DNA of 64,000 nt, taken from contig JANSXA010000006.1 in the NCBI GenBank assembly GCA_024743175.1, positions 186,001-250,000 on the forward strand, written 5' to 3'. The notes beneath the pieces were generated by a model. That model made no database searches and was not told the DNA's origin. It saw nothing but the letters and a program-made list of their open reading frames with translations. This document shows, piece after piece, positions 35,573 to 43,784 of the stretch (position 1 is its first letter; each line of letters starts with the position of its first letter). The DNA is from Pseudomonadaceae bacterium. Its GTDB lineage: Bacteria > Pseudomonadota > Gammaproteobacteria > Pseudomonadales > Azotimanducaceae. The position numbers were made by a program, and so were the translations under genes.

Positions 35573-36418
35573 TCAGGCCGCGGGGCGTTCGTTCCCCAGA
35601 ATAGATACCCGCTCACCATACCGGCTGTGTGGGTAGTAATCCCAGACCGCGTGGTGCTGGGTGCAACGGTTGTCCCAGAACGTCAGCGTATTTGGACGCC
35701 ACTGCACCCGGCAGTAGAGACGTTGCGTCTGAGCAATGTGGTCCAGCAACGCGCCCATCAATGCTTTGCTTTCCCAGACGTGCAGACCCTTGATGTGTGA
35801 AGTAAAACCACTGTTGACGTACAAAACTTTTTTACCCGTCTCAGGATGGGTTACAACAACGGGATGTTCATTGCGTGGGTATTTTGATCCCTCAGGTGGT
35901 GATACCTGATACCCGCTGAGATAGGGGATAGCGCCGTCATGCACGGCAACCAGCCCATCCAGCATGTCTTTCATCTTTTCGCTGAGTAGCTCATAAGCCA
36001 GGTACATGTCGGCAAACAAGGTGTCTCCACCACCGCCCTCGGGGGTTTCAGTGATGTATAACATGGAACCCAACGGAGGTATTTCATCGCAGGTGACGTC
36101 GGTATGCCAACCGTTACCGGCCGTGTATTTTGAGTCCTTGGTGGTTTTCACGCGCAGGATTTCCGGGTCGCCGCCATAGCTGTGCTGCATGGGATGCACA
36201 TGCAGCGTGCCGAATTTGCGTGCAAAAGCTTTGTGCTGTTCCTGATCAATCACCTGGTCGTGGAAGACTAAAACCTTCCAGTCTAACCAGGCCTGGTAAA
36301 TTTCACTGAACTGTTCATTCGAAAGTGGTTGTGCCAGATCGACACCCTCTACTACAGCACCAATGTGCGGGGTAATGCTGTCTACACCGATGGTTTCATA
36401 TCTGTTGATCTGCGCCAT
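35573..36418 (-). CDS. TauD/TfdA family Fe(II)/2-oxoglutarate dioxygenase (copy 1)
   Basis: A 281-aa dioxygenase. Metal ligands: WHTD (His, Asp) near the middle and a distal His in TQHHAVWDY, with the 2-oxoglutarate-binding Arg in SRYGERVSI. Family members hydroxylate taurine, alkylsulfates, phenoxy acids and related compounds. The ATG at 36418 follows GGAG by 6 bases and matches the usual length. It is downstream of the acyl-CoA dehydrogenase in one operon. A second TauD enzyme lies at 42945. Confidence 0.9.
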   Translation of the reverse strand: MAQINRYETIGVDSITPHIGAVVEGVDLAQPLSNEQFSEIYQAWLDWKVLVFHDQVIDQEQHKAFARKFGTLHVHPMQHSYGGDPEILRVKTTKDSKYTAGNGWHTDVTCDEIPPLGSMLYITETPEGGGGDTLFADMYLAYELLSEKMKDMLDGLVAVHDGAIPYLSGYQVSPPEGSKYPRNEHPVVVTHPETGKKVLYVNSGFTSHIKGLHVWESKALMGALLDHIAQTQRLYCRVQWRPNTLTFWDNRCTQHHAVWDYYPHSRYGERVSILGNERPAA

Positions 36419-36443
36419 TGTCGTCTCCTTTAAATCCGCCAGT

Positions 36444-37625
36444 TTATTCCGGTAAACCCAGCACCCGTTTGGCGATAATGTTAGCCTGGATTTCGTTGCT
36501 GCCACCGTAGATGGTTGTCGCTTTGCTGCCCAGCCAGTCGCTGGCTGCGTCCAGCTCAGCCTGGGTGAAGCCATTCGGGTCGTGTGCCCCCAGACCACTG
36601 AATCCCATTAACTCACGCTTCAGCGCAGCACCATCCTGTTGCAGGGCTGCCCCGTACAGTTTGAAAATTGAAGTAGCCGCACCCGGTGTGCCGGATTTGT
36701 TTTCGGCGTTGGCTCGCGCGGCAGTAAGCTGGAACGCCGCGCGGTTCATATTCAACGTTGTAATGGTCTCGCGCAGGGCTGGATCAGCAATGCGACCATT
36801 ATCTTCACCGACATATTTTTTTGCCGTTTTGACAAGTCCGGCGCCGGGTTGAGCCTGTCGCGCACCCCCGTTGAGGCCGCCAATACCGGATCGTTCAAAC
36901 TGCAGCAGGCGTTTACCTACCGTCCAGCCTTTGTTGAGGTCACCCAGCAGATCCTCTTTTTCAGCGACGGCATCATCAAAAAAAGTTTCGCAGAAAGGTG
37001 ATGTGCCGGAGATCAGGCGAATAGGTTTTACCGTGACACCGGGCTGATCCATGGTCATTAACATGAAGCTGATACCTTCATGTTTAGGTGCATTGAAGTC
37101 CGTACGCACCAGAATGAACATCCAATCTGCAGTGGCCGCACCGGACGTCCAGATCTTCTGACCGTTGATCAGATAATGATCACCTTTGTCTTCGGCCTTG
37201 GTGTTTAAAGCGGCCAGATCAGAGCCTGCATTGGGTTCTGAGTAGCCCTGGCACCATTGAATTTCACCACGAATGATTTTTGGCAGGTGCCGTTCTTTCT
37301 GCGCATCATCGCCATATTCGAGCAGGGTTGGACCGATCATCGACATGCCCATGCCGACCAGCGGCGAGCGCGCGTTGATTTTGCCCATTTCCTCAAACAG
37401 TACCCGGGCGTAGTTCTGACTCATTCCACCGCCCCCGTACCGGGTTGGCCAGGTTGGCGCGGTAAAGCCTTTTTCAACGCAGGCTTCCAGCCATTTGGCA
37501 ACGTCGGGTTCGAGGGTGATTTTGCTGGAGCCGTTGGCAATCTGGCCAGGTCCGCGTGCGCCTGCTGGACAGTTTTCGGCCAGCCATGCGGCGGTATCTG
37601 CTCTGAATTCGGCTAATTCGCTCAC
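36444..37625 (-). CDS. Acyl-CoA dehydrogenase
   Basis: A 393-aa flavoenzyme: N-terminal helical domain, FAD-binding QGYSEPNAGSDLAALNTKA, then KIWTSGA, and a C-terminal IYGGSNEIQANIIAKRVLGL close to the usual YGG..EIQ.N.IA. signature. It oxidises acyl-CoA to 2-enoyl-CoA. The start is a GTG at 37625 with GGGGAGG upstream, which gives the family's standard length; a much longer in-frame extension would run into the divergent operon. It is followed by a TauD dioxygenase. Confidence 0.9.
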   Translation of the reverse strand: MSELAEFRADTAAWLAENCPAGARGPGQIANGSSKITLEPDVAKWLEACVEKGFTAPTWPTRYGGGGMSQNYARVLFEEMGKINARSPLVGMGMSMIGPTLLEYGDDAQKERHLPKIIRGEIQWCQGYSEPNAGSDLAALNTKAEDKGDHYLINGQKIWTSGAATADWMFILVRTDFNAPKHEGISFMLMTMDQPGVTVKPIRLISGTSPFCETFFDDAVAEKEDLLGDLNKGWTVGKRLLQFERSGIGGLNGGARQAQPGAGLVKTAKKYVGEDNGRIADPALRETITTLNMNRAAFQLTAARANAENKSGTPGAATSIFKLYGAALQQDGAALKRELMGFSGLGAHDPNGFTQAELDAASDWLGSKATTIYGGSNEIQANIIAKRVLGLPE

Positions 37626-37713
37626 AATACCTCCCCAATATTTGTGCGAAACCAAAACTGTACTCGGTATAGTAGGAAACTCAAGTTCGTCAGGTGCAGG
37701 AAAAACACAGGTC

Positions 37714-39297
37714 ATGAATATAACGGTGCCGCCTTTTTCGTTAAGCAACAGTCAGTCTGAGCAGGTTAGTTTTCCGTCTGGTAAAGCCAGTCTGGTCTGT
37801 TTCATAAAAGAAGACTGCCCCACCTGTCGGGAAGTGATACCTGTGCTGGCTGCCATGGCTGACGCGGTGGGAGATACGCTGGACTTTCATGTCATAGGCC
37901 AGACCCAGGCCGGTAATCAGACGCTGCTGGAGACGTTTGTTCCACCTTTCGACATTCTCGACGACAGTTCCCTCAAAGTGTCGTATGCCAGTGACATTGA
38001 TACTGTTCCGACGCTGGTCTGGTCCGATGGTCAGGGAAAACCCTCACAGACACTGATTGGTTTTGTGAAAGACGAGTGGCGGGCGTTAACTGAATCCCTG
38101 AACGCAGAACAAGGTGTGCCTGCGCCGGCAGTAGATTGGCAGAACTTGCCGGATTGGCGACCTGGATGCGGTTCTCTGTCGGTGGATCCGTTGATTGCTG
38201 ACCGGTTACGTGCCGAAGCAGAAAATTCTCCCCTGCGAGCCCGTCGTATAGACATCGGAGTTGCTGACGACGAAATTGAATTCATGTTCGACCAGGGGTT
38301 TTCTGATGGCCTGCCTCTGGTGCCACCCACCCCGGAACGCGTCATGCGTATGCTGGCAGGCACCCGGCGGGATCCTCAGGATGTACTGGCTCAAATGCCC
38401 CCTAACATGGGTGACGTGACGGTAGAAAAGGTTGCCATCAACGCAGTGATGGCTGGCTGCAAACCAGAGTACATGCCGGTGATCAATACTATTGTGCAGG
38501 CCATCTGTACAGACGAGTACAACATTCATGGCGTCATGGCGACCACCATGGGTGCCAGTCCGGTGGTTGTGGTAAACGGCCCGATCCGTGAGCGTATTGG
38601 CATGAATATGCAGCTTGGCGCGCTTGGCCAGGGCAATCGAGCCAACGCCACCATCGGTCGCGCGGTACGCCTGATCATCCGTAATGTCGGCGGTGCCAAA
38701 CCCGGTGGCACCGAGCGTTCGACACTAGGTAATCCGATGAAATTCACTATGAGTTTCCCGGAGTGGGAAGAGCGCAGTCCCTGGTCCCCGCTGCACGTTG
38801 AACGCGGCTTCGCGGAAGAGGATTCCGTGGTATCGGTGTTTACCATGTCCAGCGGACCGACCTTGATCGTCGATCAGGATTCCAGAAGCGGTGCGGGTCT
38901 GGCGGGGACTATGGGCCTGTCGCTGGAATCGGCGTTTAACCCCAAGGCTCACTACGCAACAGACTGCCTGCTGGTGGTGGTGCCGGAGCATGTTGATACC
39001 TTTGTCAGGGATAACTACAGCAAGGCTGACATCCGCGCGCGCATTCAGGAAGTGACCGCTAAACCCATCGGGCAGTTGATGGCTGATGATATTTCCGGTG
39101 CGGGTTTTAAGCCGGAGATGGTGGAGAAAATGGGGCCCGGTGCTATGGATAAAATGATGCCGAAATTTCGCTCGGAAGATGATATTCATATTGTTGTGGC
39201 GGGTTCTCAGGCAGGCAAGTTTTCAGGCGCTTTTCATGGCTGGGCATCGGGAGAGATTGGCTCTATCCCCGTTTCGCGTAAGATAGATGAGCTGTAA
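37714..39297 (+). CDS. Thioredoxin-like/UGSC-partner protein
   Basis: A 527-aa protein in an operon with the UGSC selenoprotein (20-bp gap). Residues about 20-130 form a thioredoxin-like domain with a CPTC redox pair (Cys35, Cys38: IKEDCPTCREVIPVL). The remaining 370 residues form one conserved domain (FSDGLPLVPPTPERVMRML, then GDVTVEKVAINAVMAGCKPE, ATTMGASPVVVVNGPIRERI) that I know only as a partner of UGSC proteins, with no assigned reaction. The ATG at 37714 follows an ACAGG-type site. Possibly a reductase or carbon-sulphur enzyme using the partner as redox relay. Confidence 0.7.
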   Translation: MNITVPPFSLSNSQSEQVSFPSGKASLVCFIKEDCPTCREVIPVLAAMADAVGDTLDFHVIGQTQAGNQTLLETFVPPFDILDDSSLKVSYASDIDTVPTLVWSDGQGKPSQTLIGFVKDEWRALTESLNAEQGVPAPAVDWQNLPDWRPGCGSLSVDPLIADRLRAEAENSPLRARRIDIGVADDEIEFMFDQGFSDGLPLVPPTPERVMRMLAGTRRDPQDVLAQMPPNMGDVTVEKVAINAVMAGCKPEYMPVINTIVQAICTDEYNIHGVMATTMGASPVVVVNGPIRERIGMNMQLGALGQGNRANATIGRAVRLIIRNVGGAKPGGTERSTLGNPMKFTMSFPEWEERSPWSPLHVERGFAEEDSVVSVFTMSSGPTLIVDQDSRSGAGLAGTMGLSLESAFNPKAHYATDCLLVVVPEHVDTFVRDNYSKADIRARIQEVTAKPIGQLMADDISGAGFKPEMVEKMGPGAMDKMMPKFRSEDDIHIVVAGSQAGKFSGAFHGWASGEIGSIPVSRKIDEL

Positions 39298-39317
39298 CTC
39301 ATTATTAGAGAGGGTTT

Positions 39318-39836
39318 ATGACAACCATTTTAGATCCCACTGATGAACGCGTGCCGGTCGCACGCTCAATCAGTCCTCGACCCGAAGTGATTGAAGGTAG
39401 CGTTGCGCTGCTGGATATCTCAAAACCGCGCGGTAATGTGCTGATCGATCGGCTGGAGGAACTGTTGCAACAGCGGCTGCCAAAAGTTGAGTTCAAACGA
39501 TATGCCAAACCAACCTTCACCAAACCTGCGCCGGATGAACTGCGCCAGCAGATCCAGCAGAACAATGACTTTGTCATTGAGGCGCTGGCTGACTGAGGAT
39601 CCTGTACCACGTGCAGTTTGCATGACACGGTATGGTTCGAAATCCAGGGCACCCCTGCGGTTTCGATTGCATCGAGTGAGTTTGTTGATGCCGCGACCAC
39701 CCAAGCCCAGGCCCTGGGTATGCTGGATGCGCAACGTGTGTTCGTTGATCACCCGATCCAGGATGCTAACGATGAAGAAATGCGCGCGAAGGCAGATAAA
39801 GTTGTCGATCAGATTATCGCTGCACTTACTCGTTGA
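39318..39836 (+). CDS. UGSC family selenoprotein (in-frame UGA = Sec93)
   Basis: A 172-aa protein that reads through TGA at 39594-39596. Before it: MTTILDPTDERVPVARSI ... NNDFVIEALAD; after it, in the same frame: GSCTTCSLHDTVWFE and AVSIASSEFVDAATTQAQAL, ending in AALTR. The UGA lies in U-G-S-C, the diagnostic motif of UGSC (seleno)proteins, where Cys-containing homologues have CGSC. An SECIS-like hairpin follows the UGA at the right distance. GAGAGGG precedes the ATG. The neighbouring thioredoxin-like protein suggests redox or C-S chemistry. Confidence 0.92.
39602..39635 (+). promoter_or_regulatory. Bacterial SECIS-like hairpin after the Sec UGA
   Basis: CTGTACC (39602-39608) pairs with GGTATGG (39629-39635), and CGTGCA (39610-39615) pairs with TGCATG (39619-39624), leaving a GTT apical loop and a small internal loop. 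Two G-U pairs are used in the lower stem and one in the upper. The loop begins 20 bases after the UGA with a G at its first place, within the range reported for bacterial SECIS elements that bind SelB. Confidence 0.75.
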
Positions 39837-39884
39837 GTGTTCTGCGTTAGTTAAAATAACTCTGCCTGTTTCAGAGCCGATGGC

Positions 39885-41669
39885 TTGAACACCGGCATAG
39901 CTGAGGCTGCCGCCTGTCTGCTGATCGTCGGGGTGAGCTGCGTATATGTTCTGGCAAAAGGCTCACCTCGCTTCCTGGCAGCCTATCTGCCGTTGGCTTG
40001 TGTCAGCGCGGTTGTTTATTGCACCGGGCATTTGACCCATCGCATTGTTTCAGAGCCGCAAAGCTTCGCACTTGCATTGTATGTCCTTTATGCCGGCTTA
40101 ATGGGCACGGTCACATTCTGGTGGGTGTCGATCCTGGATGTCGCCCAACATTACCGTTATGTGCCTGCCGGCATCACTAAACCTATCCAGAAAATTTCGC
40201 TCAGCGCGATGTTGCTGCTGCTGTTGGGTTTGATCACAAACCCCTGGCACGGACAGTTTCTTGTGCCTAATCTTGTTGGTTTAAGCGAGTTCAAGCTGCT
40301 GTGGTATTTGAATGCCGGGATACTCTGGTTGTTTATCAGCTGCGCCTGTCTGCTGGCGATTTACTGTGCAGGTAAAACCCAGGTTCGAGCGGACCGGGTG
40401 CAGATGACCCTGTTAGCTCTGGCGATGCTCATCCCTGGGCTGTTCAACGGATTGTATCTTTCTGGCGTGGCTAACATTGAAGGCGACCCTACCGCAATTG
40501 GTCTGGCATTCAGTTCAACGGTTTTCATTTATGCCATATTCCGCGGACAACTCTATGTGTTGTCAGGTGTCCGTATCGATCAGTTTATGGACAATCTGAA
40601 GCGTCCAGGCATTCTTGTTGACCGCCACTATCGATTGGTTTATATGAACAATGCAGCCCGTGAAACCTTTGGTGATCTTCCTGTGCACACACCGGTAGCC
40701 CCGGTGCTAGCGTCCAAGCTGGTCTCTGGCTCTGCCGACGCGTTAACACCAGAGCGAATTGAAGAGTCGCCGGGGGAGGTGTTTCAGGTTGTCGATCAGC
40801 CTGATACCTGGAGTAGTATTTCTGCACAACCTATCCTTACCGGGCAGAAACAGATCGGTTCCATGTGGCTGTTTGAAGATGAAACGTCAAAGGTGCGGGC
40901 TTCCCGGCAGTTTGCAGCTGACCAGCGGCTGGACAGTTTGCGTATGATGGCTGCAGGTATTGCCCATGACTTTAACAACCTGCTGCAGGGGGTGATTGGC
41001 AACGCAGAACTTGTTGAGCTGAACCTGCAGGGAGATGTGACCCATGCAAAGGATTTGCTGACTAAACTGATCAGTGGTGCACAGCGAGCAGCTGGGTTGT
41101 CGCAAAAGCTGCTGGCGTATTCGGGTCGAGCACAGATCAAAGTAGAAAATATAGACCTCAATGAACTTGTGCAGGATGTCCTGACGTTCATGCAGATTGA
41201 TCTTGCACCCAGCGTGCCCATAAATGTGGCATTGTCAGAGCAGCAGATACGGGTGGCGGTAGATCCCGTGCAGGTTGCCGAGATTGTGTTCAACCTGCTG
41301 ACAAATGCCTATGAAGCAGCGCACGGTCAGGAGGGTTCAATCTGGTTGTCCAGCGGGCAGGTTGAGCTGGATCAGAGTGCAATTGACGCCTGTCAGATTG
41401 CAACAACCGCGGTGCCCGGGCTGTACTGCTTTCTGAGTGTGGCCGACAGTGGCTGTGGCTTGACGCCGGACACGATGGCCCGGATATTCGAACCCTTTTA
41501 TTCCACTAAAGAGCTGGGCAGGGGTTTAGGTCTGGCGGCGGTGTCAGGCATTGTTGCCACTCATGGCGGGGCGCTGCGCGTATTCAGCCCTGCCGGGACG
41601 GACGAGCAGATAGATAACAAAGGCCGGACTGAATTTATCGTGTATTTCAAAGCCCTGGATGCCGCATAA
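39885..41669 (+). CDS. 7TM sensor histidine kinase with PAS-like domain
   Basis: A 594-aa sensor kinase: seven or so membrane helices at residues about 5-235 (histidine-kinase N-terminal 7TM region), a PAS-like segment near 240-345 (GILVDRHYRLVYMNNAARET), the phosphoacceptor His361 in AAGIAHDFNNLLQGVIGNAE, and an HATPase domain with NLLTNAYEA, DSGCGL and GRGLGLAAVSGIV. No response regulator is adjacent, so it is an orphan. It starts with a TTG at 39885, 48 bases after the selenoprotein gene, with no clear ribosome site. Confidence 0.87.
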   Translation: MNTGIAEAAACLLIVGVSCVYVLAKGSPRFLAAYLPLACVSAVVYCTGHLTHRIVSEPQSFALALYVLYAGLMGTVTFWWVSILDVAQHYRYVPAGITKPIQKISLSAMLLLLLGLITNPWHGQFLVPNLVGLSEFKLLWYLNAGILWLFISCACLLAIYCAGKTQVRADRVQMTLLALAMLIPGLFNGLYLSGVANIEGDPTAIGLAFSSTVFIYAIFRGQLYVLSGVRIDQFMDNLKRPGILVDRHYRLVYMNNAARETFGDLPVHTPVAPVLASKLVSGSADALTPERIEESPGEVFQVVDQPDTWSSISAQPILTGQKQIGSMWLFEDETSKVRASRQFAADQRLDSLRMMAAGIAHDFNNLLQGVIGNAELVELNLQGDVTHAKDLLTKLISGAQRAAGLSQKLLAYSGRAQIKVENIDLNELVQDVLTFMQIDLAPSVPINVALSEQQIRVAVDPVQVAEIVFNLLTNAYEAAHGQEGSIWLSSGQVELDQSAIDACQIATTAVPGLYCFLSVADSGCGLTPDTMARIFEPFYSTKELGRGLGLAAVSGIVATHGGALRVFSPAGTDEQIDNKGRTEFIVYFKALDAA

Positions 41670-41674
41670 CCGTT

Positions 41675-42955
41675 TTGTTATCTGATACTGAAAATCGCCT
41701 GTATTTCGGCTACTACCTTATTTGTGCAGCCTTTATTGCCCAGTTCATTTCTATCGGCATGTACAGCTACGTACTTGGTCCGTTCATGATTCCGATGACA
41801 GAAGATCTGGGCTGGAGTCGAGCCGATTTCACGGTAACCCGTACGCTAGGCCAACTGGTGATGGCGACCGTTGGTGTTTTTGTCGGCGCCCGCGTTGACA
41901 GGATCGGTGGGAAGCCAATTATGCTGGTGGGCACCACAATTCTATCCCTCGGCCTGATCAGTCACAGTATCATTGAGCAGTTGTGGGTCTGGTGGCTTCT
42001 GAATGGCGTTATTCTCACGGTAGGTTGCGCCATGGTGGGGAATCTGGTTGTTAATGTCACCCTGTCCAAGTGGTTTGTGGTGAATCGTGGTAAAGCAATC
42101 GCCTTTGCCGCCATGGGTGTATCCTTCGGCGGCGTGGTGTTAACCCCTCTGGCCACCTGGCTTATTGATACCATCGGCTGGCGAGAAGCCTGGATCTGGT
42201 TAGGTGTTTTGGCGGCGATATGCCTATATCCGGTTGCTCTGTTCATGCGTCGCGCACCTGAAGATCATGGCCTTCATCCTGATGGACTCAGCGATGCGCA
42301 AGTTGCGGCAGGTGGCAGCCAGCAGGCTTTGGCAGAAGAAGCGCGCGCCTACACCCGGCGTCAGGCGCTGCGCACATTTTCCTTTTATGCGCTGGTTATC
42401 GCTTTCGGCTTTTTTTCCATCAACATCGTTGTGCTGCTGCTGCAAACGGTACCTTTTCTTACTGACAGTGGCTTCAGCCGCAACGATGCGGCTCTGGCGA
42501 TGCTGGTTGCCTCTGTGCCGGCGATGCTGTCAAAACCAGTCTGGGGTTATCTGATTGATCTCAGTCCGGCTAAGCCGTTGGCGGCAGTGTCTGCCTCGGT
42601 TACCGGTGTCGCCCTTTTTCTGATTGTGTTTGCAGTCGACAGTCATCAGCTGTTCTGGGTCTATGCAGCCTATGTCGTTCTGGGATTAGGCTGGGGTGGC
42701 ATGATCCCAATGCAGGAAGTTATCTGGGCGTCATTTTTTGGACGCCGGCATATTGGTGCAATCAGAGGTGCTGGAATGCCTTTTGCGCTGGTCCTTGGCG
42801 CTGCAGCGCCATGGCTTGTGTCGTACTATTATGATCAGGTGGGGAGTTATGATGGCGCTTTGATGGTAGTGGCTGGCTTGAATGTGTTTTCAGGCCTGCT
42901 GATTTTTATGGTGCCACCGCCGGGTCAAGCGAGGGGAGAAGAAAATGAAATATGA
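41675..42955 (+). CDS. MFS transporter
   Basis: A 426-aa major facilitator with 12 predicted helices; the loop 2-3 motif appears as GARVDRIGGKPIML. N-terminal and C-terminal halves are linked by a soluble loop near residues 195-230. It resembles the monocarboxylate/oxalate-formate antiporter group. It starts with TTG, 5 bases after the kinase stop, and overlaps the next gene (TauD) by 11 bases, so it probably takes up the substrate of that enzyme. Confidence 0.88.
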   Translation: MLSDTENRLYFGYYLICAAFIAQFISIGMYSYVLGPFMIPMTEDLGWSRADFTVTRTLGQLVMATVGVFVGARVDRIGGKPIMLVGTTILSLGLISHSIIEQLWVWWLLNGVILTVGCAMVGNLVVNVTLSKWFVVNRGKAIAFAAMGVSFGGVVLTPLATWLIDTIGWREAWIWLGVLAAICLYPVALFMRRAPEDHGLHPDGLSDAQVAAGGSQQALAEEARAYTRRQALRTFSFYALVIAFGFFSINIVVLLLQTVPFLTDSGFSRNDAALAMLVASVPAMLSKPVWGYLIDLSPAKPLAAVSASVTGVALFLIVFAVDSHQLFWVYAAYVVLGLGWGGMIPMQEVIWASFFGRRHIGAIRGAGMPFALVLGAAAPWLVSYYYDQVGSYDGALMVVAGLNVFSGLLIFMVPPPGQARGEENEI

Positions 42956-43784
42956 GAATATTGTTGTGTCGCCAAACGCGGGTGTTGGTGCGTTTGTCAG
43001 CGGTGTTGACCTGTCCAGTTTTGATGATGTCAGCCTGATTGAGCTGAAGAACGCGTTTGCTGAACATGGGGTGTTGTTTTTTCGAGATCAGAAGCTTGAT
43101 GAAAGCCAGCATATTGCGTTAGCAGAACGTTGGGGTGAGATTAACATCAATAGATTTTTCACACCGGTGCCAGGCTACCCTGAAATAGCTCAGGTACTCA
43201 AGGAACCCGAGCAGCAAACCAATATCGGCGGAGGTTGGCATACCGATCACTCCTACGATCAGGAGCCGGCATTGGGATCTCTGCTGTACGCTAAAGAAGT
43301 GCCAGAGGTGGGGGGAGATACCCTGTTTGCAAGTTGTGCTGCTGCGTACGATGCGTTATCGGCGGGTATGCGGAAAATGCTGGCCGGTCTCCGTGCAGTA
43401 CATTCATCTCGTCATGTGTTTGGTGAAAGTTCAGCCTACGCGGAGGATATGTCGGGGCGCCTGAGTAACGCGCAGGCGGCCACGCAGGATGCGGTGCATC
43501 CGGTTGTTATCAAACACCCGCTCTCAGGTCGTAAAACACTGTACGTTAACCCTGCCTTCACGCTCCACTTCGAAGGCTGGACAGCAGCCGAGTCCATGCC
43601 CCTGTTACAGCAGCTCTACAATCATATGATGCGAGCTGAGTTTACCTATCGTCTGCATTGGGCGCCGGGCACGCTGGCATTCTGGGACAACAGGGCAACC
43701 TGGCATTACGCACTGAACGACTATCAGGGGCAGCGACGACTGATGCACAGGATCACCCTTGATGGCGGGCGTATAGCTGCCTGA
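42945..43784 (+). CDS. TauD/TfdA family dioxygenase (copy 2)
   Basis: A 279-aa Fe(II)/2-oxoglutarate dioxygenase with WHTDHSY (His, Asp), a distal His in TWHYALNDY and the Arg in GQRRLMHRITL. It is only distantly similar to copy 1 at 35573. The reading frame starts with ATG at 42945 inside the transporter gene's end, so translation is coupled. Likely substrate: an organosulphur, aromatic-acid or betaine-type compound brought in by the neighbouring MFS protein. Confidence 0.88.
   Translation: MKYENIVVSPNAGVGAFVSGVDLSSFDDVSLIELKNAFAEHGVLFFRDQKLDESQHIALAERWGEININRFFTPVPGYPEIAQVLKEPEQQTNIGGGWHTDHSYDQEPALGSLLYAKEVPEVGGDTLFASCAAAYDALSAGMRKMLAGLRAVHSSRHVFGESSAYAEDMSGRLSNAQAATQDAVHPVVIKHPLSGRKTLYVNPAFTLHFEGWTAAESMPLLQQLYNHMMRAEFTYRLHWAPGTLAFWDNRATWHYALNDYQGQRRLMHRITLDGGRIAA

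Follow-up and report, generated by a model that had tools for sequence, protein, structure and literature searches.

An in-frame UGA probably read as selenocysteine in a UGSC-family gene, and its constant partner gene, in a Pseudomonadaceae bacterium

The window analysed in this study, a stretch of 64,000 nucleotides from contig JANSXA010000006.1 of the Pseudomonadaceae bacterium assembly GCA_024743175.1, carries what is very probably a genuine gene of the UGSC selenoprotein family, in which an in-frame UGA codon is decoded as selenocysteine (Sec). This high confidence, gained from sequence comparison, covers the decoding and the family, not the roles of the UGSC protein and of the partner gene described below. 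Translation of positions 39318–39836 of the forward strand confirmed the frame first proposed from the letters alone, uninterrupted apart from the TGA at 39594–39596 and terminated by a second TGA at 39834–39836. Reading the UGA as Sec gives a product of 172 amino acids with Sec as residue 93, in the context ...ALAD-U-GSCTTCS.... The sequence-only reading had also expected a standard gene caller to split the gene into pieces of 92 and 72 residues; the plain list of open reading frames (ORFs) does give the 92-residue piece, closing the gene at the TGA, and in our own reading the following start codon (TTG, codon 101) would give the 72-residue one.

The whole product matched the NCBIfam model NF041046 with 169.5 bits (curated cut-off 125) over residues 28–171 and the Pfam UGSC model PF24696 with 166.5 bits (cut-off 25) over residues 3–171, in agreement with the family assigned by the sequence-only reading. 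Each half of the product, tested alone, matched the same UGSC family, the part before the TGA giving 57.8 bits and the part after it 90.5 bits with NF041046. The (U/C)GSC motif, U being written as C, was invariant in 20/20 aligned sequences. With its near whole-length match, the Sec in U-G-S-C, and the occurrence of both Sec and Cys forms, the window UGSC is an ordinary member of an already catalogued family, and no difference from the family was found in its sequence. According to the portion of PMC2398784 consulted, UGSC selenoproteins have been in print since at least 2008, with 255 Sec and 21 Cys sequences, and form one of the most frequent selenoprotein families of an ocean survey. Excerpts of two reviews (PMC13188914 and PMC9312934) list the family, the former describing the functions of such proteins as largely uncharacterised, and it is mentioned in excerpts of PMC7539508 and PMC5330540.

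The best 80 of 414 relatives found in reference genomes were kept for comparison. All 80 have TGA at this codon, and all continue beyond it. Purifying selection is similar on either side of the TGA, the ratio of nonsynonymous to synonymous differences (pN/pS) being 0.245 before it and 0.214 after it (0.225 after it without the hairpin codons; synonymous differences are near saturation). It weighs against a plain use of the TGA count that the relatives kept are close ones, with 70–85% identity; since they are the closest, the count favours the Sec form. More divergent relatives in a sample of the phylum comprised Sec forms in genomes G139 and G311 and Cys forms (CGSC) in G143 and G277, so that the Cys forms anticipated from the sequence do exist. 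A Cys-form UGSC copy in G277 (C6:12789-13246; L104/L107) extends over two frames, with a TGA elsewhere, and is either decayed or affected by a sequence error.

The Sec machinery which the sequence-only reading had presumed is present in the host genome (4.72 Mb in 18 contigs, 98% complete). A tRNA-Sec gene with anticodon tca scored 71.7 bits, seven other matches lying under the cut-off, and selA, selB and selD gave one match each above the curated cut-off. The selA, selB and tRNA-Sec genes are contiguous (C7:276126-279444). The selD match (C7:290569-291483; L098) lies inside an open frame of 732 amino acids, fusion-sized for SelD. A selA match above the cut-off was obtained in 12/12 TGA-form genomes (the host itself, G139, G311 and nine picked from the 80 relatives) and in 0/2 of the Cys-form genomes tested, G277 giving a match of 19.3 bits only.

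Bacterial Sec insertion sequences (SECIS) are hairpins that closely follow the UGA on its 3′ side and carry a G early in a small apical loop, and decoding of UGA as Sec through SelB is an established route. The window RNA folds as a two-part hairpin with the G of a GUU loop 20 nucleotides after the UGA, as had been proposed. Two results weigh against its significance. Folded alone, the window hairpin was not significant (z −0.34, with 61/200 shuffles folding at least as well), so that by itself it could have been chance; and 3/85 TGA sequences have no G loop at +20, among them an in-genome paralogue whose predicted fold has a C-first loop. In the other 82/85, the window included, a three-base G-first loop was predicted at +20 (one of the 82 with an extra hairpin), the form described above for bacterial SECIS. 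Across 82 sequences (window, 80 relatives and the paralogue), the ratio of observed to expected synonymous heterozygosity was 0.30 over codons 94–108 (14 usable columns) versus 0.93 elsewhere (101 columns; Mann-Whitney p = 2.9e-7), with the minimum of a 15-codon sliding window at codons 92–106, and window and relatives differed synonymously by 0.154 on average over codons 94–106 and by 0.81 over codons 107–172. The upper stem was paired in 29/29 distinct sequences, the paralogue excluded, one of them carrying a double compensatory change from C-G to G-C where both paired bases are third codon positions; the lower stem was looser, its pairs being kept in 16 to 29 of the 29 sequences, pair by pair. 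The synonymous collapse, the G loop at +20 and the paired upper stem across relatives show that the conserved hairpin is not due to chance, and it fits the expectation for a bacterial SECIS. On this reading, SelB would deliver Sec-tRNA(UCA) at the hairpin that follows the UGA.

Two other explanations of the TGA were rejected. A reading of UGA as something other than Sec, by near-cognate suppression or a code with UGA as Trp, would likewise keep the frame open, but is highly improbable, as Cys, the usual counterpart of Sec, stands at the site in two genomes without selA above the cut-off, the host has tRNA-Sec, selA and selB, the UGSC frame itself closes at a second TGA, and a hairpin of bacterial SECIS type is conserved. 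A pseudogene or split gene, in which the TGA would be a true stop, arisen by mutation or as a sequencing error, ahead of a decaying 3′ part, would agree with the ORF list closing the gene there and is just as improbable, being strongly contradicted by the conservation of the downstream frame (the TGA shared by 80/80 relatives, similar purifying selection after it, the synonymous constraint on the hairpin); the signs of decay named by the sequence-only reading, a genome without sel genes and homologues stopping at the UGA, were not seen, as sel genes are present and 80/80 relatives read on.

The clue added by this analysis, and the point deserving a second look, is a constant two-gene unit formed by UGSC and a partner gene. 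In the window the partner lies directly upstream, its end 20 bases from the UGSC start; we chose its start at ATG 37714, the ORF list giving a 600-residue frame from TTG at 37495. Its N-terminal domain shares the fold and the CPTC motif with the thioredoxin-like proteins ResA, StoA and TlpA, from which the partner differs by a UGSC-associated C-terminal domain (CTD) placed after it. The CTD gave nothing above the cut-off in scans of NCBIfam and Pfam, and a fold search of the PDB with the whole partner returned, among the 50 listed of 1233 matches, only thioredoxin- or peroxiredoxin-type or uncharacterised proteins. The matches listed cover only a quarter of the model, which leaves the CTD without a fold relative among them. 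The Cys at partner residue 249 was invariant in 17/17 aligned sequences.

A CTD homologue adjoins UGSC in 80/80 relative loci. The thioredoxin domain was detected in 75 of them; in the other five the available stretch begins inside or close before the CTD, and the missing part was probably cut off. The CTD was also found at 7/7 further UGSC loci, which represent six gene places (two loci being one place), with the thioredoxin domain detected at 2/6 of these. Among 398 genomes of the phylum, UGSC occurred in five, matches covering the CTD in those same five only, and matches to the thioredoxin part alone in 21 others. Since the five UGSC genomes had contributed rows to the partner profile, and scoring covered no more than three candidates per genome, the informative part of this result is the absence of the CTD elsewhere, an absence which is not exhaustive. 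The host has a second, divergent UGSC selenoprotein gene with an in-frame TGA (C18:276980-277495; L101, L177), lying beyond the window at a distance of about 51 kb from the copy described here, with a partner-domain gene after it. The partner is therefore upstream in the window and downstream at the second copy, and as its order differs between copies, the link between UGSC and partner outlives rearrangement. Against the partner roles proposed below stands the finding that at the second UGSC gene and at the copies in G139 and G277 the partner has no detected thioredoxin domain. In G139, two partner-domain matches stand in tandem beside one UGSC gene (C1:4572244-4574189; L106/L179).

In ocean sequences UGSC has been reported fused to a domain named Unknown_1 (PMC2398784, in excerpt). 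Both cases pair UGSC with a second domain, and Unknown_1 is plausibly the same as the partner CTD; as far as the excerpt goes, the window partner differs in forming a gene by itself, next to UGSC, and in carrying a thioredoxin domain. Neither the partner gene nor the relation to GrdB/PrdB considered below is described in the titles and abstract openings of the papers found on UGSC and NF041046, though either may be in print.

The fold of the UGSC protein was predicted with AlphaFold2 from 20 sequences with Cys substituted for Sec. In the confident model (mean predicted local distance difference test (pLDDT) 92, predicted template modelling score (pTM) 0.86) strands alternate with helices, and the Sec position opens the helix following the third strand. 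The nearest solved folds among the matches listed were flavodoxin-like or comparable α/β proteins, namely the flavin mononucleotide (FMN) reductase MsuE, lumazine synthase, AzoR and flavodiiron proteins, with query TM-scores of only 0.35–0.53. Sequence searches of the PDB with phmmer/hmmsearch gave 0 matches, and a further run gave two isochorismatase matches with E values of 0.79 and 1. The UGSC fold is predicted to be flavodoxin-like, with the UGA translated as Sec at a helix start of the α/β protein.

GrdB and PrdB (GRDB, PF07355) are the Sec subunits of glycine and d-proline reductase, a two-protein system. Profile comparison with hhalign aligned UGSC to a PrdB-like Sec domain over 96 columns, Sec on Sec, with an E value of 3.6e-4 and a score of 30.0. 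Of 60 column-shuffled controls the best reached 26.3; two controls made by reversal scored 13.4 and 12.8. The highest score among 34 real protein families built from the loci was 21.0, given by what is itself a PrdB-like fragment, followed by 20.5. In our reading of the sequences, UGSC and GrdB/PrdB share the order strand, UxxC, helix, strand, helix, strand. Several results weigh against this kinship. The hhalign probability was only 37%, and the initial alignments, which were smaller, had given 8%; another two PrdB-like fragments reached just 15.9 and 15.0 against UGSC, within noise; and the UGSC protein had no match to Pfam GRDB at E up to 10 (HMMER filters can drop weak matches), so that the likeness exists at the profile level only. 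The PrdB-like profile gave eight weak matches in PDB sequences, none of them a reductase of this kind. The relation of UGSC to GrdB/PrdB is a lead suggested by sequence profiles, not a finding.

The strongest rival sees in UGSC a flavodoxin-like redox protein that binds flavin or nucleotide and has no kinship with GrdB/PrdB, a shared α/β layout alone accounting for the profile likeness. This is a serious possibility, if somewhat short of an even chance: the solved folds nearby include FMN reductases, azoreductases and flavodiiron proteins, and the low hhalign probability and the one shuffled control close to the true score speak for it, while the Sec-on-Sec alignment scored above 60/60 shuffled controls and the top real family was PrdB-like, its two companion fragments notwithstanding. 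Clearly less probable is a stand-alone thiol oxidoreductase of thioredoxin fold, as suggested in print, with the neighbouring gene a mere frequent operon companion. The UxxC motif is redox-like, but the model has flavodoxin-like neighbours, the 50 PDB matches listed (out of 1753) include no thioredoxin, and the pairing with the partner survives changes of gene order. The thioredoxin fold was therefore rejected for UGSC, the fold predicted here differing from the thioredoxin-like one suggested in the part of PMC2398784 consulted.

In function, UGSC is most likely paired with the protein encoded directly upstream. The thioredoxin domain of the partner would then be likely to reduce the Sec-Gly-Ser-Cys centre, and the C-terminal domain to be the subunit that bears substrate or cofactor; these roles, drawn from the genetic pairing, are put forward tentatively. 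Together they would make a two-component, thiol-driven selenoenzyme, as we infer. If the distant likeness of UGSC to the GrdB/PrdB Sec domain is taken as a guide, the likeliest reaction would be the reductive cleavage of a small organic substrate, a proposal that is doubtful as it stands. Comparably speculative is a reading in which UGSC and the partner domain pair up as the subunits of a selenium-dependent reductase of a class not yet described. Such an enzyme would be a compact relation of the glycine and d-proline reductases, would serve catabolism in seemingly aerobic hosts (so judged from the dioxygenase-like genes in the vicinity), and would often have its thioredoxin donor within the partner. 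The constant partner, the predicted non-thioredoxin fold and the possible tie to GrdB/PrdB would turn an "unknown redox protein" into a proposed two-protein complex open to expression and assay.

The features of the window are collected in Table 1.

Table 1. Position of the UGSC gene, its partner and associated elements in the window.
Feature	Position	Strand	Basis or remark
Partner gene, 527 aa from ATG at 37714	37714..39297	+	CPTC thioredoxin-like domain, then C-terminal domain
Partner thioredoxin-like domain (ResA/StoA-like)	37714..38109	+	Family and fold matches
UGSC partner domain (CTD), ~395 aa	38110..39294	+	Invariant Cys, partner residue 249
Possible ribosome-binding site GAGAGG before UGSC start	39308..39313	+	Read from sequence
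UGSC-family selenoprotein gene (very probable), 172 aa	39318..39836	+	NF041046/PF24696, relatives, synonymous constraint
UGA codon, very probably read as Sec, residue 93	39594..39596	+	TGA in 80/80 relatives kept; Cys in G143 and G277
Bacterial SECIS-like hairpin within coding sequence	39598..39638	+	Upper stem 39610-39615/39619-39624, apical loop GUU 39616-39618

The host genome also contains two PrdB/GRDB-like genes with an in-frame TGA, L108 (C4:112104-112475) and L116 (C7:411059-411433), with the motifs PVUPNC and PVUPVC, respectively, which are probably further selenoproteins. A GRDB match was obtained in 27/36 of the UGSC-bearing genomes tested (of the 80).

The neighbouring genes listed around other UGSC copies were not decisive. 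In the window, positions 35573–43784 hold an acyl-CoA dehydrogenase, two TauD/TfdA-like dioxygenases and a major facilitator superfamily (MFS) transporter, all named by reading their sequences. Homologues were found in the UGSC loci of at least 37/80 relatives for the acyl-CoA dehydrogenase, at least 32/80 for each dioxygenase and at least 29/80 for the MFS transporter, counts which are lower bounds, many loci being short (the same procedure found the partner in at least 59, versus 80/80). These neighbours suggest a catabolic setting for the window UGSC.
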